This document shows, piece by piece, positions 6,550-35,377 of a stretch of DNA of 35,823 nucleotides (positions within the stretch are counted from its first letter, which is position 1; every line of letters begins with the position of its first letter). The stretch is taken from positions 1 to 35,823 of the IMG/VR virus record IMGVR_UViG_3300042484_002026; one strand, given 5' to 3'. This DNA is from a virus. The notes beneath the pieces are model-generated. The model had not been told where the DNA came from and ran no database searches. It saw only the letters and a program-made list of their open reading frames with translations. The translations under genes were made by a program, and so were the position numbers.

Positions 6550-6837
6550 TTAGAACCACCAGAAATGCTTGATAATTGAAAGAGATGCCAGAACAACCCA
6601 CAATACGTTAAAAAGGATGATTGTGGGAAGTGTCTTCTTGGTGGATGTCCAAATAAGAGCAACGCTCGAGATGATGGCAAAGATGTAGAGCCACCAGAAC
6701 TGCTTGCCAAGTAGCAAGCCGGGAAAGATGATGGCAATCTTGGTAGAAAATCCCCACGCCTCAACGGTGTTGACTCTTGTCCAGTAGTCCTTGGATGACA
6801 TTGTTTTAATGGCTGTAATGATTTTATTATAAAACAT
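6550..6837 (-). CDS. Small integral membrane protein, 95 residues
   Basis: I do not recognise this protein as a family member. It is strongly hydrophobic from about residue 30 (AIIFPGLLLG, FWWLYIFAIISSVALIW, TIILFNVLWVVLASLSII) and ends HFWWF. Two to three membrane segments are likely, with a short polar N-terminus. It overlaps the upstream oxygenase gene by 11 bases, and GAAAGGT before the ATG at 6837 supports that start over the internal Met at residue 13. It sits between an oxygenase and a methyltransferase. It could be a membrane anchor for the modifying enzymes, a flippase-like helper or a holin-type protein; context slightly favours a role with the sugar enzymes. Confidence 0.7.
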   Translation of the reverse strand: MFYNKIITAIKTMSSKDYWTRVNTVEAWGFSTKIAIIFPGLLLGKQFWWLYIFAIISSVALIWTSTKKTLPTIILFNVLWVVLASLSIIKHFWWF

Positions 6838-7384
6838 GATTACCTTTCATTCGTTGGTGCTGATAGGCAGTTTCTCGGTCGGCAAAGAATAGCTGAAGAC
6901 TACATCTTTTGACAGGTGCTGCACTAGTAATCATTGATACATGATGGGGTATCTGTCCCTTTGCAACAACGGCGGTATTGAATTCTGGAACATACCCTTT
7001 TAAGTTTTTATCTTCCATATATATGAATAAACCTCCCCAGTTTTTGTCCCATGACTCATTTAGGTAGATGGAGACATTTATTGGTGAGTAATCTTCATGC
7101 CAACCAATCTGGGAATGAATAGGCATTGAATAAAACATTGGAAATGGGATACATAAATCCATTTCTTTGACTTCAGGGACAAATAAACTCACCTCTTCTC
7201 TGAGGTTTTCTTCAAATTGTTCAAGACTTGCCATCGTTATTGCGGCCGAACCTTCAGTGAGTTCTTTGTTCCACATCGTATTTTCTCGCCAAATATAATC
7301 AAACGAATTCTGGGAAATATACTCGTGGATTTCACTCAACAAAGAAATAGATAAAACATTTTCATGCCGTTCTATGGTTCCCAT
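6827..7384 (-). CDS. 2-oxoglutarate/Fe(II)-dependent oxygenase (first of three)
   Basis: This 185-residue protein carries the facial triad and cosubstrate residues of the 2OG-Fe(II) family: H96-x-D98 in GWHEDYS, a distal His at 147 in PHHVSM, and R160 in VKRCSLQLFF as the likely 2OG carboxylate ligand. The spacing and the NVSIYLN and WGGLFIY strands fit a prolyl-hydroxylase-like double-stranded beta-helix. It would hydroxylate or otherwise oxidise a side chain or small molecule. Its first seven codons closely match those of the oxygenase at 8048-8764 (MGxIERH), at DNA level too. Substrate is unknown; the clustering of three such enzymes with two collagen-like fibre genes is suggestive only. 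Confidence 0.83.
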   Translation of the reverse strand: MGTIERHENVLSISLLSEIHEYISQNSFDYIWRENTMWNKELTEGSAAITMASLEQFEENLREEVSLFVPEVKEMDLCIPFPMFYSMPIHSQIGWHEDYSPINVSIYLNESWDKNWGGLFIYMEDKNLKGYVPEFNTAVVAKGQIPHHVSMITSAAPVKRCSLQLFFADRETAYQHQRMKGNHVL

Positions 7385-7386
7385 GC

Positions 7387-8055
7387 CTACTTCCAGACCA
7401 CTGTTTTTACATGACCAAGACGGATGGTGGTGTCAAGCATGGGTTTGAATCCTGCTTCATGTGCACGGATAAACCATGATGCGTCCTCGCTTGTCTCAAA
7501 GGTTTTTTCCCCAGTCGATGGATTGTGAACTTCCTTGTTTGAAAAGTACGGCACCTCCATTTCACCAAACACCCCTCTTGATATGCAAACAAATCCAAAT
7601 CCGCTTGTGTAGATACCTACGTATTCAGGGAGACTATCTAGTTCTTCTAATAAGAAAAAAGATGGGGAATTTGATATAGGGCTTATTGCTAGTGCGCAAG
7701 TTTCGGTTGCATTGCTTCCAAATTGTTTGGTAGAACTTAGTTTGCCATCCGAACTGACGTGATAGGAGCCGACGGTAATTGGGTGTGGGGAGGAGATGAT
7801 TTTGGCAAAATCTTCTACCGTCCATTGTATGTCACTGTCTATCCATAACATTTTGTCATACGCTAGTCGTGATATGCGAATTTGCTCGACCATAATTTCG
7901 CGTAATTGGCCAACGTGCGAGCCAGCAGCAGTGTGTATATCAACATTAATATTGTTTTCATAACCAAATTTGAATGTTTGGCACAAAGAAGCAACATACT
8001 CTGGGGTGTATGACTGTGCGGGGGTCATGATTAGCACCCGGCGAACATTATTCAT
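7387..8055 (-). CDS. GT-A-type glycosyltransferase-like protein with DSD motif
   Basis: From the ATG at 8055 this is a 222-residue protein of the phage GT-A-like group that begins VLIMTPAQSYTPEYVASL and carries a metal-binding DxD in KMLWIDSDIQW (D73-S-D75). ITVGSYHV and an ED pair (FETSEDASWFIRAHEAG) follow, as in family-2-like transferases. I prefer 8055 to the more upstream Met at 8100 because it overlaps the preceding stop by only eight bases. The protein probably transfers a hexose or related sugar using a divalent metal. It lies between two 2OG oxygenases, which suggests that hydroxylation and glycosylation act in the same pathway; that link is inference. Confidence 0.82.
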   Translation of the reverse strand: MNNVRRVLIMTPAQSYTPEYVASLCQTFKFGYENNINVDIHTAAGSHVGQLREIMVEQIRISRLAYDKMLWIDSDIQWTVEDFAKIISSPHPITVGSYHVSSDGKLSSTKQFGSNATETCALAISPISNSPSFFLLEELDSLPEYVGIYTSGFGFVCISRGVFGEMEVPYFSNKEVHNPSTGEKTFETSEDASWFIRAHEAGFKPMLDTTIRLGHVKTVVWK

Positions 8056-8764
8056 CTTCTGTAAACTTTGTTTCTGGAGTAATAAATGAATCCTCATCAA
8101 TCAAGTTGATGTTTTGGACAGGCTCAATCGAACAGTTGATAAATTCACTGATAATCCACTTATCGCTAGATAGCGGAACCAGACCCTGATGCGGGTACTG
8201 CCATGTGGTTGGAAAAACTACAACCTTTCCAACTTCTGCGTTCACTGTTAATTCGTGCATAGGGAAATGAGTCCCACCGCCATCTTGCACCGTATTGAGA
8301 TAAACAACGACTGCGAGAATACGTTTGATACTGCTATCACCATGCGTTTCAATCCATGGAACAGCATCGCAATGCTGCCTGTAGTAGCCAGCATTTCGTT
8401 CGTAGCGCTGAATCCTAAAACCAGTAGATTGGACATTTGGCGCCTGCCATAGCTCTCGGTACTGCTCAATGTAGTCAGCAACGCACGACCAAACGATGGT
8501 GTCAAACGAACTGCATATCTCAAAATATTTTTTATAATGTCTTAATTCTGGCGTGTATTGCTCATCATTCATAAATGATGTATCCATACACCTCTTCATG
8601 TATGGATTGTAACCACCGATGGTCGGACCAGCAGAAAACAGTGTATTAAAATCTTCCGTCAAACATGAAACCAATTCTTTACATAATTCTGCGTCTAGGA
8701 CATTTTTGTATTCAGCAATACCAGAAACTAACCCGAGTGGAAAATGCCGTTCTATCTGTCCCAT
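8048..8764 (-). CDS. 2-oxoglutarate/Fe(II)-dependent oxygenase, prolyl 4-hydroxylase-like (second of three)
   Basis: This 238-residue protein has a P4H-type core. H131-C-D133 follows the YERNAGYYRQ strand, the glycine-rich GGGTHFP turn comes after the ILAVVVYLNT strand, the distal iron His192 sits in YPHQGLVPL, and K202 in DKWIISEF is the 2OG-binding lysine typical of P4H enzymes. All key residues are present, so it should be active. It overlaps its upstream neighbour by 13 bases. Peptidyl proline is the classical P4H substrate, but phage members of this family have no settled substrate. The N-terminal MGQIERH is shared with the oxygenase at 6827-7384. Confidence 0.88.
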   Translation of the reverse strand: MGQIERHFPLGLVSGIAEYKNVLDAELCKELVSCLTEDFNTLFSAGPTIGGYNPYMKRCMDTSFMNDEQYTPELRHYKKYFEICSSFDTIVWSCVADYIEQYRELWQAPNVQSTGFRIQRYERNAGYYRQHCDAVPWIETHGDSSIKRILAVVVYLNTVQDGGGTHFPMHELTVNAEVGKVVVFPTTWQYPHQGLVPLSSDKWIISEFINCSIEPVQNINLIDEDSFITPETKFTEDE

Positions 8765-9543
8765 GCTCTTTGCTCCCTTTTGTATTTACCTTTTCTCCAA
8801 TCATTCAATGGGGACCATGGTCCACCAAATCCTCGACTCCTATGTAGTGAGTGAAGTCCTTGGTCGCCAAAGATAATGGAATCGGTATTTTCTTTACGCT
8901 TGACCACTATTAGCTGTGCTATTGGTGTTCCTTGTTTGAGATAGAAAGGTTCTTTGGTTTTGACATTTAGAACCACATTGACAGTGTGATAATAATCCGT
9001 ATTGACTATCCCGGGGACAACATCAAACTCTGGCTGTGGGTTAATTAAAGAACCAACAATAAGAACAGAGTAGCCTTTTGCCGTTCTGAAGGAGAAAGGG
9101 TTAACAAGTTTTAAGAAGTTTGTTTTCTTTACCGAATCATCTCGGCGTTCAGTGTATGGGCAATCACCGGTTTGCTCATAGGTGAACGGGTCAATGCGAC
9201 CAGCAAGGTCACTTTCTGATTCTGGCACTAAATTGAATTCAGCCTGAATCAACGAGCCATCTGGTGAGAGTCGGCACCTAAGGTCTGCCCACAATGGGAT
9301 TGTGATTCCCGTGTACATTAGGTCTGTTGTTCCAGGACAAAATTTAATATTCTTGTCATCTGGTAGTTTATTGACCCACCATTCTTTGCTATTTTTATTA
9401 ATGAACGGTTGAATTTTTTCAACGTCCAACATTGAATTGGACTCAGGCATTATGAGAATTTGGTTTGGTTTTAAGTTTGGAACTTGACCAACCCGGTTTA
9501 AACCTGATAGGTGTGAGATTCCTTTATTTTTTGAATATTTCAT
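8752..9543 (-). CDS. DUF6065-like protein with dUTPase-like motifs
   Basis: The FSFRTAKGYSVLI / GIVNTDYYHTV / GTPIAQLIV string resembles the DUF6065 family as I remember it. It also reads like dUTPase motifs: GIVNTDYYH (178-186) against GxIDxDYRG, GTPIAQLIV (205-213) against GDRIAQLIV, and RSRGFGG (235-241) against the Gly-rich C-terminal arm. In motif III the usual first Asp is Asn181 and the Arg-Gly is lost, so dUTP hydrolysis is unlikely. I infer a beta-sandwich binding protein of the dUTPase/DCD fold, possibly binding a nucleotide-like or sugar ligand. It overlaps the halogenase gene by 20 bases, so the two are probably made together and may cooperate. Confidence 0.6.
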   Translation of the reverse strand: MKYSKNKGISHLSGLNRVGQVPNLKPNQILIMPESNSMLDVEKIQPFINKNSKEWWVNKLPDDKNIKFCPGTTDLMYTGITIPLWADLRCRLSPDGSLIQAEFNLVPESESDLAGRIDPFTYEQTGDCPYTERRDDSVKKTNFLKLVNPFSFRTAKGYSVLIVGSLINPQPEFDVVPGIVNTDYYHTVNVVLNVKTKEPFYLKQGTPIAQLIVVKRKENTDSIIFGDQGLHSLHRSRGFGGPWSPLNDWRKGKYKREQRAWDR

Positions 9544-11014
9544 GGTGTTTGATTACTCGTTCTGTACGAAGGTAGGAATCACGTATTTGGGTAATCCTTG
9601 TCTTTGCTAATTCTAGTGTATTGTGCCTAATCAGGGCAAGACGTGAATTTTCTTCATCAACCAACCCCTGACCTTGGGCAACATGCCAAAAATGCGCAAC
9701 CTGAAACAACTCATAACCATTCATGCCATAGTAGTCGTTCCGTGAAGGGCTTCGCTCTTTCCAGAGTTCCATCATATCTTCCAACATTGGCGGCCTAGGC
9801 ATATCTGCTGCATCACGCCAAAATTGAGTGTCTCTTCTGTCGGATACGTAATGTAATGCAATCATGGAGACCAAGTTTTGATGAAATTCGTCCATTATTT
9901 GGTTGTATCTTTTTATGGATGCAGAGTGATTGGGTGAATAGGAACCTAGAAACGTACACAATAAACGAGCCTGCTGAATGGCGGTAGAAATAGAAGTTGC
10001 CTCTAATGGCTCGATAAATGAACTTGCAAGTCCAATGGCTACACAATTTTTATGCCATTGAGTTTTTAGGAATCCTGAATCAAAATGAATAAATCTTGGG
10101 TTCTCTATGGGGTATCCAGTCATTTGTGACAATTCTTCCAAGACAGCCTCATCATCAATATGCTTAGATGAGTACACATACCCATTGCCCCTGCGGCTTT
10201 GTGTTGGTATTTCCCACACCCACCCAGAAGATGCTGCTCGGGCACGTGTGTATGGACGTATCTCGCCATTTGGGTCAGGGGGAGTTGGGAATGGGGATGC
10301 AGAATCAACCAGTAAATACTTCGAGTATGACTCCCATGCGTTGTTCCCAAGGGCACTCATTAGGACTCTTGATAAACCAGTTGCATCAATCCAGAAATCA
10401 GCAAAATACTCATTTTCCCCACACGATACAGAACCAATAAATCCGTTATCTTCTTTGATATTCAATTTGGTAACTTTGTCATCAATAACGCTTATCCCGC
10501 GTTTTTTGCAAAGTTCATGGAAATATGAATTTAGTTTAAATGTGTCAAAATGAAACTGATTTGTTTGTTTGTGAAATGACAGTCCTTCTGTTATTTCGTT
10601 TCCTTCTGCGTCAATTTGAAAAGGTTTCTGAATACAATTTTCTATAAATAGTGGGTGTGAAAATAAATTTGTTAACAGTTTGTCATTTGAATTAGCCCAG
10701 TCATAAACCGGAATCAAATCATTATGCAACTCATAGGAGGAAATACTATGAAAATACTTGGGTGTGTGATTTGTCCAACCCTCAAAATAGATTCCGTATT
10801 TATGCGTTGCTTCAGTTTCTTTGACGAGCTCGTCAATGTTTATGTCGCACAATTCGCAAAAAGTTCTCCAGTGTTCGGTCGAACCTTCACCAACCCCAAT
10901 TATTCCTATTTTTGAAGACTCCAATATGGATACATCAAATACCGGCAAGAGTTTTTTTATTACTAGTGCGGCAATTAAACCTGCCGTTCCTCCGCCGACA
11001 ATGTTGACTTGCAT
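9524..11014 (-). CDS. Flavin-dependent tryptophan halogenase
   Basis: This 496-residue protein has all signature motifs of flavin-dependent tryptophan halogenases: the FAD-binding GGGTAGL (7-13), GVGEGST near residue 43, the lysine K72 (HKYGIYFEGW) that corresponds to the catalytic Lys holding hypohalous acid, GWVWEIP (264-270), and E338 in EPLEATS, matching the Glu paired with that Lys. Length is close to PrnA/RebH enzymes. It would need FADH2 from a host flavin reductase; none is encoded nearby. The substrate could be free tryptophan, a peptide-borne Trp or another aromatic. Halogenase-like genes beside 2OG oxygenases occur in other aquatic phages, but their role is not known to me. Confidence 0.93.
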   Translation of the reverse strand: MQVNIVGGGTAGLIAALVIKKLLPVFDVSILESSKIGIIGVGEGSTEHWRTFCELCDINIDELVKETEATHKYGIYFEGWTNHTPKYFHSISSYELHNDLIPVYDWANSNDKLLTNLFSHPLFIENCIQKPFQIDAEGNEITEGLSFHKQTNQFHFDTFKLNSYFHELCKKRGISVIDDKVTKLNIKEDNGFIGSVSCGENEYFADFWIDATGLSRVLMSALGNNAWESYSKYLLVDSASPFPTPPDPNGEIRPYTRARAASSGWVWEIPTQSRRGNGYVYSSKHIDDEAVLEELSQMTGYPIENPRFIHFDSGFLKTQWHKNCVAIGLASSFIEPLEATSISTAIQQARLLCTFLGSYSPNHSASIKRYNQIMDEFHQNLVSMIALHYVSDRRDTQFWRDAADMPRPPMLEDMMELWKERSPSRNDYYGMNGYELFQVAHFWHVAQGQGLVDEENSRLALIRHNTLELAKTRITQIRDSYLRTERVIKHHEIFKK

Positions 11015-11015
11015 G

Positions 11016-11639
11016 CTAACTGAACCATGTCACAAAGGAATATTTGACATATGGAGAATTTTCCTCAACAGGAAGAGCAGAATGGCGATAGACGAAGTTG
11101 GATGGAAACAAAATTATTGAGCCAGCCTCGCAAGGAACCGTTAAATCAAGATGTCCAAAGTAAAGTTCGCCGCCAACAAAATCGTCACTCAACCATCCGA
11201 CCAAACTTAACTGACGTTTGTTTTCCCAATGATAATCAATATGCGGTCGATACTCGGCTCCGCTTGGGTATTTTAATACCCTGTATCCTTCGTCGGAGCG
11301 AAGGTCTAGATTCCAGTATTGTCGGTATTGGTGAACACATGCATTTATGTGACTAAATGCCGTCTTCCATTTTTCAGAAACAGCATAAAGTCGATTGGTT
11401 TGCTGAACTTCGTCCGAGATTGGACCAAGGTGCATTTCTATGGAGCCCCTATAATTTGATATTTTTCCTTGGTCTGTTCCAGACATTTCCCACATTAAGT
11501 ATGGCCAGTCTTGGGAGGACTCTTCTTCCAGCATGTCCTTGATTCCGGTAGGGTCAAAAACATTCCTATACAGAAAGACCCCTGGCGCTAGGTTTTCATA
11601 CGGATATTCATTTGCTCCTTGAATATCTTCAATTGTCAT
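11016..11639 (-). CDS. 2-oxoglutarate/Fe(II)-dependent oxygenase, P4H-like (third of three)
   Basis: This 207-residue protein shows H133-I-D135 after the VLKYPSGAEYRP strand, FVGGELYF as the core turn, AGSIILFPSNFVYRH with distal His186, and K199 in YVKYSFVTWFS as the 2OG ligand. All catalytic residues are present. Its ATG overlaps the stop of the upstream unknown gene (ATGA), and it ends one base before the halogenase start, so oxygenase and halogenase are co-translated. It does not share the MGxIERH start of the other two oxygenases and looks like a separate lineage within the family. Substrate is unknown. Confidence 0.87.
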   Translation of the reverse strand: MTIEDIQGANEYPYENLAPGVFLYRNVFDPTGIKDMLEEESSQDWPYLMWEMSGTDQGKISNYRGSIEMHLGPISDEVQQTNRLYAVSEKWKTAFSHINACVHQYRQYWNLDLRSDEGYRVLKYPSGAEYRPHIDYHWENKRQLSLVGWLSDDFVGGELYFGHLDLTVPCEAGSIILFPSNFVYRHSALPVEENSPYVKYSFVTWFS

Positions 11640-25027: not shown

Positions 25028-28000
25028 ATGTTCGTACGGCGCCGTCGCATCAATAAACCTGCGGCCATCATGGCTGTCCCTTCAGTGTTCCTTTTGCTGG
25101 TATCAATTTTTGGCTTTTCATCCCCTGTCCAAGCCACTTTCTCCACACTTAGCCAAATAAGTGACTCTCAAGCCTTTCTCCAAGGCCAGTTTGCCGAGGT
25201 TGGCGTAAGACCAAACGGTGCCTTTGGCTCAACAAGCGTTCCTTCTGGATTTCACCAGAACTCTGGAACCTGTCTTGGCTTCCGCGTAGACCGCGCTTTT
25301 GATGGTTGGGACAACCCAGCGACTACAGACGATGGCGACTTCTTCTGTCCTGGCTCTCCGTTTGAGGGCTGGCAAATGAAGGTTGGCTCAAATCTTGCAA
25401 AGAACGATAATGGTACGACTGGCATTTCTGGTGCCGTGTCCAACCTTCAAACTTCTGGCTCCTCACAATGTGTGTCTTGGAATAGCGCTACTGCATACAA
25501 CGGCGTTTCTATAAGTCAAAGGTATTGCGTCCCAACGGATGGACAGGCACTGCATACCGACGTGACTATTAGCAATACAAGCGGTGCTGCTATTGACAAC
25601 ATCTACTTTGGTCGTGGGTTTGACCCAGACGACTACACCGGAACAGGAACAGTTCCTTTATGCAATGGTGTTGCAGAAGATACAAATATGTTTCAGTCAT
25701 GCAATGCCGTAACGGGTCAGGGAACAGAAGCCCAAGCAACAGCGCGTTGGGGTAACGGTGCCTTTATTGCACTCCAGTCCTTTGATGCTCGCGCCCGTGT
25801 TGCTCGACAGACTGGTGGATTCTCTTCTCCTGACCCATCGGAGATTTGGACTGCTGGAGATACTTCGGCAACAACTGGAACCTACAGAGGTGACATTGGT
25901 GAGTTCTCTGCCGATGCAGGTCTTTATGTCGCGCTTAGTGTTCCAACCCTTGGTGCTGGTGCGACAACATCGTTCCGTGTTAGTTACGTTCTTTCATCGG
26001 AAGGTAATAAGGCTCCAGTTCTTGGTGCCCCAATCGCGAGCGGTATTAGCCAAACCACCGCTCATGTTTCTTCAACCATAAACCCAAAGGGTTTCTCAAC
26101 TACCGCAAACCTTGTTTACTCAACTAGTTCAACTTTTTCTAACCCAACAACAGTATCCATCGGAACATTTACTGGTTCTGATGAACTCACATTTGATGTG
26201 GATATGCCAGACATAACACCAAGCACTACCTACTACGCAAAGGTTGTTGCAACGAACGAAAAAGGCACCACTGAATCTTCTGTATTTCAAATAACAACAC
26301 TCGCTGCTTCTGCGCCTACGGTTACATCAGAAGACCCAACTATTGCCATTAATGATGGCCCGGTAACACTAAGTGGAACACTCAACCCAAATGGGTTTGC
26401 GGCTACCGCAACATTCCAATACAGCACTACACCAGACTTCTCTGGAACCGTTGTTGATATTCCGGTATCTGGAGATTTCACTGGGACATCGCCTTCAACA
26501 GTGTCGACTGTTGTATCAAGCCTCAACCTAACAACGACTTACTATTTCCGACTCAAAGTAACCAATGCTTCTGGTTCTGCTTACGGCTCAACTATTTCTT
26601 TTGTTAATGCCGACCTAGTCGCACCAACATCACTGGTTGTTACGAGTCTTGATGACAACACCTCGAGTGGAACTCTCCGCTGGGCAATCACCCAAGCGAA
26701 TGCTACTACTGGCGGGATTTACGATGCAATCACATTTGGCGTTGACGGAACAATCTCTCTTGGTTCTGCTCTTCCTCAAATAACACAGAACCTTACGGTC
26801 ACTGGTAACGGCAGAACACAGACGGTTATTGACGGACAGAATCTTTACCGTCCCTTCAATGTGGCGTCCGGTAAGTCTTTAACTGTTTCAAACATGACAC
26901 TCAAACAAGGTCAGGCAACCAACGGTGGTCTTATATACAACGGCTCAGGAACTGTAGTTGCCACGAACATCCGCTTTACGGCGATGACTGGTGGTTCTGC
27001 TGTATTCAATAACAATAGTTGGTCAACCGCAACGTACACAAACTGCACGTTTGACTACCTTAACACTGGTATTGCTGGTGACTACGGCGACACCCCACAA
27101 CTTCCAAGCGATGCAGCAAATTGGGCAGATACGCATGATTATTTATTCAACAATAAAACCTATGTTGACAACTGCATATTCACAAACAACACCTACGGAA
27201 TCAAAAACTACCGCTTCACCAAGGTGGTCAACTCGCAATTTGCAACGAATAGTTACGGTGCGAGCATAACTGGTTTGAACCGTTCACAGGTGCTGAACTC
27301 TACGTTCACTTCTAACGGTATTGGTATTTACCACAACTCCTGGATGACGGTTGGAAACAACTATGGAACAAACAACCGCTTAATCACTGGGAACACATTC
27401 AACTCAAATGGTGTGGCGATTTATCTTGACGATACGTGGAACAATGCTCGAAAGAATCAAGGTTGGTCAACCGTAACTGGGAACACTTGGGATGCTTCGG
27501 GTGTCTGGGTTCGTTACTACCAGTGGGATGGAACCACCAATGCTCAGTTCACAGCGCGTCCATATACGACGGGAACAGCATTCGCGCAAAGCACAAACAC
27601 TTTCCCAGACACGATTGGCGCACCGTCCAATCTGACTGCAACGGACACTGGCTCGGGCATACTTCTTGATTGGGATGCACCTGCATCTGGCGGTTACTCG
27701 CCCGAAAGATATGCAATCACTTGGTCTGGAAGTCTTGGCGGCGGTGGGATAGCAACAGGAAATGTTGGTGGTGCAACGGCCCTGGATACTTCAATTCTTA
27801 TTTCTTACGCAACGATTTATTCGTTTGGTGTAGCAGGAGAAACATTCCCGTTCCATATTCGTTCAGATAACGATACTTTCTCAAAGTATTCTGCTAACTC
27901 CAACACTGTCTCAATGCAGGTCGGCGCTTCTGCAACTACGACTTCCAGCGTCCCCGATGTTCCCCTAGTTCCAGGAGTACCAACGGAGATAGTGTTACCA

Positions 28001-29659
28001 GAAATACCAACAACAACCATTCTAGAGACGCTGCTGCCAGAAATATTAGAGCCAATTGTAATAAGTACCACAATTCCACCAGAAGTGATAGTAACAATCC
28101 CAAGCCCATCACCTGAGTCTACCGTCCCAGTAGATGAACCAATCGATATTCCAGAACTTCCGGAGGTCGGTGAGCCAATAGCGACAGGGGACCTTGAGGA
28201 TATTCTGGACACTATATTCACTCCAGACGCATCTACAGAAGAAATAACCGCGGTTCTTGATGGGCTTCTTGATGCCAAGTTGACAGGCAAGCAGTTTGAC
28301 GCAGTTGTGGACGCCACTCTTGGTTCGCTTGAAGAACCGGATGCAGACGTTGGTGCCGTTGTTGATTCGTTCCTGGAAGCAGACTTGACCGATAAGGAGT
28401 TCACAAAGGTTCTTGATGCCGTGTTCTCCGAAGATGTCTCTGATGAAGTTTTCACTGAAGCACTAACAACAATGATTGATGCCGACCTTAGCGATAAGGA
28501 GTTTGACAAAGTTCTTGATGCCGCATTCTCGGAAACAACATCCCCAGAAGCGATGGTTTCTGCACTCAGTTCAATCTTTGATGGTCCGGCAAGTGGTGAG
28601 GATATATCCAAAGTAATGGGTGCAGTGTTTGACGAGGACATTTCAGCCGCAGACACCATGACAGTACTTAGCGACTTGCTTGAAACAAACTTGAGCGCGT
28701 CGGAAGCAGAAGCAGTCTTTGACAATGTGTTTGACAGTGACCTCTCGGATTCAGAAACCATTGACCTCATCGTTGATGTATTGGAAGACGGTCTAACTGC
28801 AGAGTTATTAGGCTCTGTTCTTGGTGCAGTCTTTGACGAAGAAGTAAGCACCGAGGTTTTAATTGAAACATTCACCGCTGTTTTGGATGGTGAACTAAAC
28901 GCCGAATCAATCGGAGTAATCGTGGATGTGTTGGAATCGGACACAATTACGAGCGAGCAGGTTGGACAAGTAGTCACGTTAGTAATTGAACAAGAAGGCG
29001 GAATTGAATCAGGCCAAGCAACAGAACTTGCAACGAGTGCAAAGGTTCTGGAAAGCATTGACGGAGAACAAGCATTGGCAGTGTTTGCCGCAATTGTGGT
29101 ATCTGAAGTTTCAGCAGAATCAGGTGCAGCTATTGCGGAAGCTCTTGTCGAGGCGCCAACCGAAGTCAAAGAATCCTTTGAAGAAGAGATAAATGTGTTC
29201 GCTGGAGTGTTCGATACTTACGAGCCATTAGGTTCAACTATCAATGTTGGGCAAAGACGAAGCGTTATTGCGGTAAACTTGGTGACTAGCACTGTGGCTC
29301 TAGCGGCTGCTGCTGGTGCAATACCAACCCCAGGTTCCAGTCCATCTGCGCCAAGACAAGATGTTGCGGTCCGAAAGGAAGAGGAGCAAGAGGAAGGCGG
29401 AGCAATCGAAGGCGAAGGCCCAGATTGGATTAAGCGGATATCTATTTACAAATACGAGGATGGAGTGAGAGTTATGGACTGGAAGAACTTTACAAGAAAG
29501 TTTGTTTATGGAATTTTGGCATCAGGGTTCACCCTTGCTGGCGCAACAGTCATGTACTTCACCCTTTCTGGTCTGACGCAGCAAATTGCCCTTTGGGGAA
29601 CAATCCTTGCATTCACTGGTTCCATGTACCTCCACATGAAAGAACCAGACTCAGAGTAG
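25028..29659 (+). CDS. Giant membrane-anchored surface protein with beta-helix and helical repeats
   Basis: This 1543-residue protein starts with a Sec-type signal peptide: basic RRRRINK, a hydrophobic core, and probable cleavage after FSSPVQA. It then shows an exported N-terminal domain (40-330, several Cys), two Fn3-like domains (about 330-530) and a right-handed beta-helix of the LVVTSLDDNTSSGTLRWA type (about 530-830). A third Fn3-like domain (865-967), a Pro/Thr-rich spacer and a run of acidic helical repeats (about 1050-1390; consensus DLSDKEFDKVLDAVFSE, 16-17 residues) follow. The C-terminus has one hydrophobic segment near 1411 and two near 1490-1535. This is the architecture of a bacterial cell-surface protein, not a virion fibre. 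Role is unknown: adhesion, receptor masking or superinfection exclusion are possible. Confidence 0.85.
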   Translation: MFVRRRRINKPAAIMAVPSVFLLLVSIFGFSSPVQATFSTLSQISDSQAFLQGQFAEVGVRPNGAFGSTSVPSGFHQNSGTCLGFRVDRAFDGWDNPATTDDGDFFCPGSPFEGWQMKVGSNLAKNDNGTTGISGAVSNLQTSGSSQCVSWNSATAYNGVSISQRYCVPTDGQALHTDVTISNTSGAAIDNIYFGRGFDPDDYTGTGTVPLCNGVAEDTNMFQSCNAVTGQGTEAQATARWGNGAFIALQSFDARARVARQTGGFSSPDPSEIWTAGDTSATTGTYRGDIGEFSADAGLYVALSVPTLGAGATTSFRVSYVLSSEGNKAPVLGAPIASGISQTTAHVSSTINPKGFSTTANLVYSTSSTFSNPTTVSIGTFTGSDELTFDVDMPDITPSTTYYAKVVATNEKGTTESSVFQITTLAASAPTVTSEDPTIAINDGPVTLSGTLNPNGFAATATFQYSTTPDFSGTVVDIPVSGDFTGTSPSTVSTVVSSLNLTTTYYFRLKVTNASGSAYGSTISFVNADLVAPTSLVVTSLDDNTSSGTLRWAITQANATTGGIYDAITFGVDGTISLGSALPQITQNLTVTGNGRTQTVIDGQNLYRPFNVASGKSLTVSNMTLKQGQATNGGLIYNGSGTVVATNIRFTAMTGGSAVFNNNSWSTATYTNCTFDYLNTGIAGDYGDTPQLPSDAANWADTHDYLFNNKTYVDNCIFTNNTYGIKNYRFTKVVNSQFATNSYGASITGLNRSQVLNSTFTSNGIGIYHNSWMTVGNNYGTNNRLITGNTFNSNGVAIYLDDTWNNARKNQGWSTVTGNTWDASGVWVRYYQWDGTTNAQFTARPYTTGTAFAQSTNTFPDTIGAPSNLTATDTGSGILLDWDAPASGGYSPERYAITWSGSLGGGGIATGNVGGATALDTSILISYATIYSFGVAGETFPFHIRSDNDTFSKYSANSNTVSMQVGASATTTSSVPDVPLVPGVPTEIVLPEIPTTTILETLLPEILEPIVISTTIPPEVIVTIPSPSPESTVPVDEPIDIPELPEVGEPIATGDLEDILDTIFTPDASTEEITAVLDGLLDAKLTGKQFDAVVDATLGSLEEPDADVGAVVDSFLEADLTDKEFTKVLDAVFSEDVSDEVFTEALTTMIDADLSDKEFDKVLDAAFSETTSPEAMVSALSSIFDGPASGEDISKVMGAVFDEDISAADTMTVLSDLLETNLSASEAEAVFDNVFDSDLSDSETIDLIVDVLEDGLTAELLGSVLGAVFDEEVSTEVLIETFTAVLDGELNAESIGVIVDVLESDTITSEQVGQVVTLVIEQEGGIESGQATELATSAKVLESIDGEQALAVFAAIVVSEVSAESGAAIAEALVEAPTEVKESFEEEINVFAGVFDTYEPLGSTINVGQRRSVIAVNLVTSTVALAAAAGAIPTPGSSPSAPRQDVAVRKEEEQEEGGAIEGEGPDWIKRISIYKYEDGVRVMDWKNFTRKFVYGILASGFTLAGATVMYFTLSGLTQQIALWGTILAFTGSMYLHMKEPDSE

Positions 29660-34753: not shown

Positions 34754-35377
34754 ATGACAACAATCATTGGAATACAGGGGGATGGATTCGCGTTTGCGTG
34801 TGTTGATTCCCAGGTTTCCGATGTTGACAACAATGGATACGCAACCCAGATAGCAACTCTCCGCGAGTCATCGTCAAAACTTAGCTACAACGGTAGATAC
34901 CTTCTTGGGGCAGCCGGAGATGTAAGGGCAATAAACATCCTGCATCACGCTTTTAACCCTCCAGTCTGTCCACCGACTTTAAGGGGAAAGAAGCTTGACC
35001 ACTTCGTTACAGTTAAATTTATCCCGTCGTTAAGGGAATGCTTCGAAACACACGGCTACAACTCTCCACAGAACGAGAACTCAGAGCACGTCGCAGAACA
35101 CGGTTCCGTTATTTTTATGGCAGTCAATGGGACGATATACATAATCGACGGTGACTACTCATGGATATCTGACATGAATGGCGTATATGCAATAGGTACC
35201 GGCGCGCAATATGCCCTGGGAGCCCTGCATGTATTGATGCCAAAGACAAAGATGACAATAACCCTTGCCAAAAGGATAGGCATTAAGGCCATATCGACGG
35301 CCGCTAGATACGACCCGTACACGGGCGCGCCGTATCACTCATTCTCTACAGGTTCCGAGAAGAAGCCAAAACCTTAA
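34754..35377 (+). CDS. Proteasome beta/HslV-like Ntn hydrolase
   Basis: This 207-residue protein starts MTTIIGIQGDGFAFACVDSQ. Removal of Met would leave the T-T-I-I-G of HslV/proteasome beta subunits, with Thr as nucleophile. VDSQ fits the D17-type position, SSKLSYNGRYLLGAAGD the K33 and glycine-loop region, and VYAIGTGAQYALGALHVL the GSG-type turn with the following helix. The length suits a proteasome-type subunit without a long propeptide. Actinobacterial hosts use a Pup-proteasome system; a phage homologue might be an independent protease, or interfere with the host complex. Whether it assembles is unknown. A terminator follows directly. Confidence 0.72.
   Translation: MTTIIGIQGDGFAFACVDSQVSDVDNNGYATQIATLRESSSKLSYNGRYLLGAAGDVRAINILHHAFNPPVCPPTLRGKKLDHFVTVKFIPSLRECFETHGYNSPQNENSEHVAEHGSVIFMAVNGTIYIIDGDYSWISDMNGVYAIGTGAQYALGALHVLMPKTKMTITLAKRIGIKAISTAARYDPYTGAPYHSFSTGSEKKPKP

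Follow-up and report, generated by a model that had tools for sequence, protein, structure and literature searches.

Halogenases carried by phages have been treated in published accounts as metabolic genes whose role and natural substrate are unknown; for prnA of cyanophages, the suggestions have been protection against antibiotics and altered host metabolites. Elsewhere, flavin-dependent brominases modify ribosomal peptides (PMC10858898). Here I describe a flavin-dependent (tryptophan-type) halogenase, HAL (496 aa; positions 9524-11014, minus strand), from IMG/VR virus record IMGVR_UViG_3300042484_002026, a 35.8-kb stretch of DNA that is called the window throughout. In a family of uncultured phages, halogenases of this kind nearly always sit with hydroxylases and a degenerate dUTPase-like protein next to tail-tip adhesin genes, which suggests that these phages chemically decorate the protein with which they grip their hosts. 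The reading I favour, with a probability of roughly 0.6, is that HAL belongs to a set of enzymes, encoded together in a conserved cassette, by which the phage modifies its tail-tip adhesin post-translationally.

HAL belongs to the PF04820 family, whose profile covers residues 3-460 and scores 328.7 bits (cut-off 21), and it matches phrog_2928 at 4.9e-104. The GxGxxG motif (G7-G9-G12), K72, E338 and GWVWEIP (the WxWxIP motif) are all intact, as a preliminary description made from the letters of this DNA had already reported. Across 32 viral relatives K72, E338, W265, P270, G7, G9 and G12 are invariant, and both motifs are invariant or nearly so. Judging from these residues, HAL is very likely an active enzyme. 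The description's remark that no flavin reductase lies nearby also held up: the profile PF01613 had no match in the window, and neither PF01613 nor PF03358 had one in seven relatives of 119-203 kb; these scans revealed no phage-encoded flavin reductase.

The cassette lies on the minus strand. In the order of transcription it runs from a collagen-like tail fibre (16776-15085; 563 aa, PF01391 102 bits, phrog_6320 tail fibre 3.9e-56) through c5, a structural-type protein of 112 aa (15085-14747; cluster 5, 36 loci), to a pair of adhesins: ADH1 (14744-14019; 241 aa), a shorter paralogue that matches the ADH profile and adjoins ADH2 in nearly all loci, and ADH2 (14016-12340), a Gly-rich tail adhesin whose loops carry His and aromatics and which has phrog tail-fibre matches and a Collagen match (PF01391). 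ADH2 is the likely target of the cassette enzymes. There follow P149 (12085-11636), a fast-evolving small protein; an oxygenase of the 2-oxoglutarate-Fe(II) class (2OG) and of prolyl 4-hydroxylase (P4H) type (11639-11016; 207 aa, PF13640 46.1 bits); HAL itself; DUT (9543-8752; 263 aa, phrog_7084), a protein with the dUTPase fold; and a second 2OG-Fe(II) oxygenase (8764-8048; 238 aa, PF13640 38.5 bits, phrog_61 2.9e-34, HxD at 131 and distal H192). The first oxygenase has the HxD...H triad and distal Lys of its class, with H133, D135 and H186 conserved in 100% and K199 in 95% of 92 relatives. The genes are tightly packed: P149 and the first oxygenase overlap by 4 bp (ATGA), the stop of the latter lies 1 bp from the HAL ATG, HAL and DUT overlap by 20 bp, and DUT and the second oxygenase by 13 bp. 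The 1-bp junction and the 20-bp overlap bear out the coupling of HAL to a P4H-like oxygenase and to the gene at 8752-9543 that had been proposed from the window; the proposed set of three genes is indeed contiguous, but the real unit is larger, extending to P149 and the two tail adhesins.

How widely this arrangement recurs was examined with 80 viral loci fetched by halogenase alignment alone, and with profiles built from the window proteins and iterated over the fetched loci. Collapsing near-copies left 60 informative halogenase-seeded clusters, of which 44 carry DUT, 43 the adhesin and 55 a 2OG gene; by the iterated profiles, and in a set of 103 loci that includes 15 seeded with DUT, DUT was found in 75 and P149 in 51. 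Other seeds, which were alignments drawn from HAL-bearing (HAL+) loci and gave the best 80 matches each, led to the same picture. With the N-terminal adhesin domain as the sole seed, HAL, DUT and 2OG occurred together in 34 of 37 informative non-redundant clusters, the remaining three loci being truncated by contig ends, and the 47 non-redundant loci recovered with DUT as seed all carry HAL, while 45 of them also carry the adhesin. A second scan led by a divergent adhesin, which partly answers the bias of seeds derived from HAL+ loci, yielded 33 informative clusters; every one has 2OG, and HAL is present in 24 and absent from nine (HAL-). The gene order seen repeatedly is fibre - c5 - ADH1 - ADH2 - (c9) - P149 - 2OG - (c8/c10) - HAL - DUT, and because it is found again in tens of divergent loci it is not due to chance. 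The true unit is fibre – adhesin pair – P149 – 2OG – HAL – DUT (– 2OG). The linkage persists despite rearrangement, with the module lying upstream of the adhesin in four loci (L216, L225, L234 and L241) and on the opposite strand in others (L200-L203). Furthermore, the pairwise distances are correlated across 81 loci (rho 0.67 for HAL-DUT, 0.61 for HAL-adhesin and 0.62 for DUT-adhesin), which fits joint inheritance. A comparison of the adhesin and P149 with 50,697 phage records gave no match, and no cultured phage was found with either.

The HAL- sister cassettes, 'NATURAL REPLACEMENTS', carry other modifying enzymes in the same adhesin setting. One order is ADH - ADH - beta-protein - P149 - 2OG - 2OG - 2OG-like - methyltransferase (Methyltransf_21) - DUT, another is ADH - ADH - N-acetylglucosamine (GlcNAc) transferase (PF11397) - DUT - DUT - 2OG, and a third is ADH - ADH - P149 - 2OG - 2OG - GlcNAc transferase - DUT. 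A search for HAL over these entire contigs of 19-106 kb found none and detected four positive controls. HAL is best explained as an interchangeable decorating enzyme, its place being taken in HAL- loci by a methyltransferase with an extra oxygenase or by a GlcNAc transferase. The Skp1 hydroxyproline GlcNAc transferase, whose protein substrate is first hydroxylated by a prolyl 4-hydroxylase, is a PF11397 enzyme, and no other observation points as strongly to a protein as the target of the cassette as the presence of this family in HAL- loci. As a separate observation, P4H-type oxygenases and a PF11397 GlcNAc transferase stand beside the adhesin in the phage cassettes L383/L385 (8891-10108) and L409 (10223-11494), and could form a viral hydroxyproline glycosylation pathway; a literature search on phage hydroxyproline GlcNAc transfer found nothing. 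In another locus (L088, 5446-7587) HAL is fused in a single 713-aa frame to a C-terminal domain of phrog_2954 type (2OG-like, HxD..H), two DUT-like genes preceding the fusion, and phrog_2954 also matches the third oxygenase-like gene of the HAL- cassettes.

DUT had been described as DUF6065-like, of which only a remote likeness remains. The DUF6065 profile (PF19541) scores 15.4 bits, under its cut-off of 26.6, and matches one of 40 DUT relatives at E<=0.01, so membership is rejected in favour of remote kinship. PF00692, by contrast, scores 39.1 bits against a cut-off of 22, and a model built from 40 relatives (predicted local distance difference test, pLDDT, 87.8) has the dUTPase fold: in a Foldseek comparison all 50 of the PDB matches listed are dUTPases, with a best E of 4.3e-5 and template modelling (TM) scores to the target of 0.42-0.68. 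The fold is retained and the catalytic Asp is gone. Position 181, where motif 3 (GVxD..Y) has its catalytic Asp, is N in the window, and 37 of 40 sequences have H or N there; the RSG signature is missing from the stretch that aligns to dUTPase motif 2. Because the motif-3 Asp is replaced and the motif-2 RSG is missing, DUT is unlikely to catalyse the dUTPase reaction and is rejected as a catalytic dUTPase. The invariant W55, C69 and Y254 point to some other function that the protein would have kept. P149 matches no known family in Pfam and PHROG searches. It is modelled with a pLDDT of 93.9 as a short alpha/beta N-terminus followed by an immunoglobulin-like beta domain, and comparison of the model with PDB structures gave no convincing relative. 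Lacking a conserved Trp and a clear PDB relative, it was rejected as a substrate of HAL.

The cassette is conserved, its catalytic sites are intact, its linkage to the adhesin is near-obligate and its HAL- sisters carry alternative enzymes. The Gly-rich adhesin pair hardly ever occurs without P4H-type 2OG genes and DUT, P149 is usually there too, and most lineages add an intact HAL, which a minority lack; I infer that the adhesin is the substrate of HAL. In the proposed scheme, the 2OG enzyme would hydroxylate the adhesin, or the fibre that bears it, on side chains. HAL would make hypohalous acid (HOX) from host-derived FADH2, O2 and halide, and K72 and E338 would relay it to the adhesin loops, where Tyr or Trp, or possibly His, would be the electron-rich acceptor. 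DUT and P149 may be non-catalytic partners for recognition or assembly, and the likely effect would be a change in adhesin stability or receptor specificity. In its fullest form, phages would halogenate their own receptor-binding adhesin by means of a swappable cassette, with halogenation, methylation and hydroxyprotein glycosylation as alternatives and a repurposed dUTPase fold as targeting partner; this form I hold tentatively, at a little short of even odds. The near-obligate link to one adhesin family names a definite substrate for viral halogenases that can be put to the test, and shifts the HAL gene out of metabolism and into the chemistry of the virion. If this is true, a structural protein of a virus bears halogen, adhesin properties can be tuned by a new means, and such phages could supply protein halogenases for biotechnology.

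The composition of the adhesins bears on which residue would be modified. Among the usual targets of flavin-dependent halogenases, Tyr is common to all adhesins, at least four residues in each, and most adhesins also contain Trp; halogenation of His would be chemically unusual. HAL+ adhesins are rich in Gly (19%) and have His-rich loops (mean His 7.2%, up to 16%), whereas HAL- adhesins are poor in His (2.3%) and mostly rich in Tyr. In their own right, the variable loops of Gly-rich HAL+ adhesins hold up to 108 His (L014:4113-5723, L039:3176-5245 and others), and could possibly bind metal. The preliminary description had suggested fibres as targets, with which the recurrent linkage of the cassette to tail adhesin and fibre genes agrees, and, as examples of a substrate, Trp residues or a small aromatic; Trp residues may be the target in those adhesins that have them. 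Trp content does not differ between HAL+ and HAL- adhesins (p=0.83), and no conserved adhesin Trp was found that could serve as a universal target.

Several points weigh against adhesin modification. The adhesins show no enrichment of Trp (0.56%), which is missing from 4 of 96 HAL+ adhesins, so that a Trp target cannot be universal. The contrast in His between HAL+ and HAL- adhesins (7.2% versus 2.3%) comes down to one or two independent comparisons and, strong as the raw difference is, these are too few for His-rich loops to be accepted as a HAL-linked trait. Linkage may come in part from host-range loci being exchanged as a single block, and adjacent glycosyl- and methyltransferases would fit a glycan target as well. 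One alternative, unlikely in my view, takes up the last of these points: a small molecule or virion glycan would be made or decorated and then attached to the fibre, HAL acting on the free precursor or on a glycan-linked aromatic. Glycosyltransferase, methyltransferase and HAD-like genes do flank the window cassette, and the viral relative VirX1 takes many small aromatics in vitro (PMC8407142), but no activating enzyme, ligase or synthase can be recognised among the constant partners of HAL (2OG, DUT, P149 and adhesin), and the glycosyltransferase families vary between loci.

If HAL were instead an auxiliary metabolic gene whose product halogenates indole, free Trp or some metabolite of the infected host, this would accord with the published proposals for phage halogenases, which are of this type, and with the genuine free-Trp halogenases within the same family. 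Yet it leaves unexplained both the near-obligate linkage to a single type of adhesin and the replacement of HAL by glycosyl- and methyltransferases, and I consider it distinctly improbable. I give very little credence to HAL being a flavin monooxygenase that hydroxylates protein aromatics: although QhpG, a flavoprotein like FAD-dependent halogenases, dihydroxylates peptidyl Trp (PMC7876137), it is nearest to CmlS rather than to the HAL family, and HAL relatives retain the halogenase-type Lys, Glu and WxWxIP region. Finally, the enzymes might have another target altogether and be linked to the adhesin only as passengers on a host-range island that phages exchange. The carriers have different terminase types, which makes transfer of the block from one phage group to another probable, but a passenger would be expected to be lost or separated somewhere, whereas none of the 33 informative loci of the divergent scan has lost 2OG and the set is unbroken by inversions and reordering; such hitch-hiking thus seems highly unlikely.

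Beyond the second oxygenase, in the direction of transcription, the window holds more glycosyltransferase-, oxygenase- and methyltransferase-like genes. These include an accessory gene (7387-8100, minus strand) like phrog_1574 (2.9e-29) and weakly like a glycosyltransferase (phrog_34859, 1.9e-4), present also in loci L003, L027 and L028, and a third 2OG-type oxygenase in the same gene run (6827-7384, minus strand; 185 aa, PF13640 32 bits). The latter is called a 2OG-Fe(II) oxygenase by Pfam and bears the PHROG label 'DNA endonuclease V' (phrog_274); this label and 'ferrochelatase', which recur on oxygenase-like genes, are probably misannotations. In two viral loci (L082 and L087), four halogenase genes lie amid several 2OG oxygenases inside 15 kb. 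A Trp-rich membrane-type protein of ~95 aa, with no Pfam or PHROG match, is strongly conserved near the cassette (L009:10365-10646 and 29 other loci). Elsewhere in the window are an open reading frame of 1543 aa (25028-29659) without a PHROG match at 0.001, and a peptidase of the HslV family (34754-35377; phrog_1040).

Literature searches on DUF6065, and on halogenases with SapC and a TonB receptor, found nothing. Several known systems resemble the cassette in part. VirX1 (the halogenase of cyanophage Syn10, PDB 6qgm) and cyanophage prnA are, like HAL, viral members of PF04820 and often lie near 2OG oxygenases. The module HALs, however, form a separate clade: in a tree of 67 rows, VirX1 not among them, the 29 module HALs fall on one side of a branch with full support (Shimodaira-Hasegawa-like approximate likelihood ratio test, SH-aLRT, 100), adjoining HALs of cyanophages and other viruses, with the bacterial HALs set apart. 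Unlike the window cassette, the four cultured-phage halogenase loci examined are without the DUT, P149 and adhesin set. Bacterial halogenase loci linked to TonB receptors (for example in Shewanella, L132) resemble the cassette in combining PF04820 with partners of oxygenase type (Cupin_8/JmjC), and also with DUF6445, but DUT and P149 are missing from 78 of the 80 nearest loci in bacterial genomes, the two exceptions (L104 and L105) being contigs of metagenome-assembled genomes with a phage-like appearance. Brominases of ribosomally synthesized and post-translationally modified peptides (RiPPs), such as SrpI, act on a ribosomally made substrate, as is proposed for HAL, whose proposed target is instead a large virion protein; no RiPP precursor or leader turned up at the cassette, where no systematic precursor search was made. 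Finally, the HAL- cassettes, with their P4H-type 2OG and PF11397, resemble the Skp1-type pathway of prolyl 4-hydroxylase and PF11397, from which the HAL+ cassettes differ in holding a halogenase instead.

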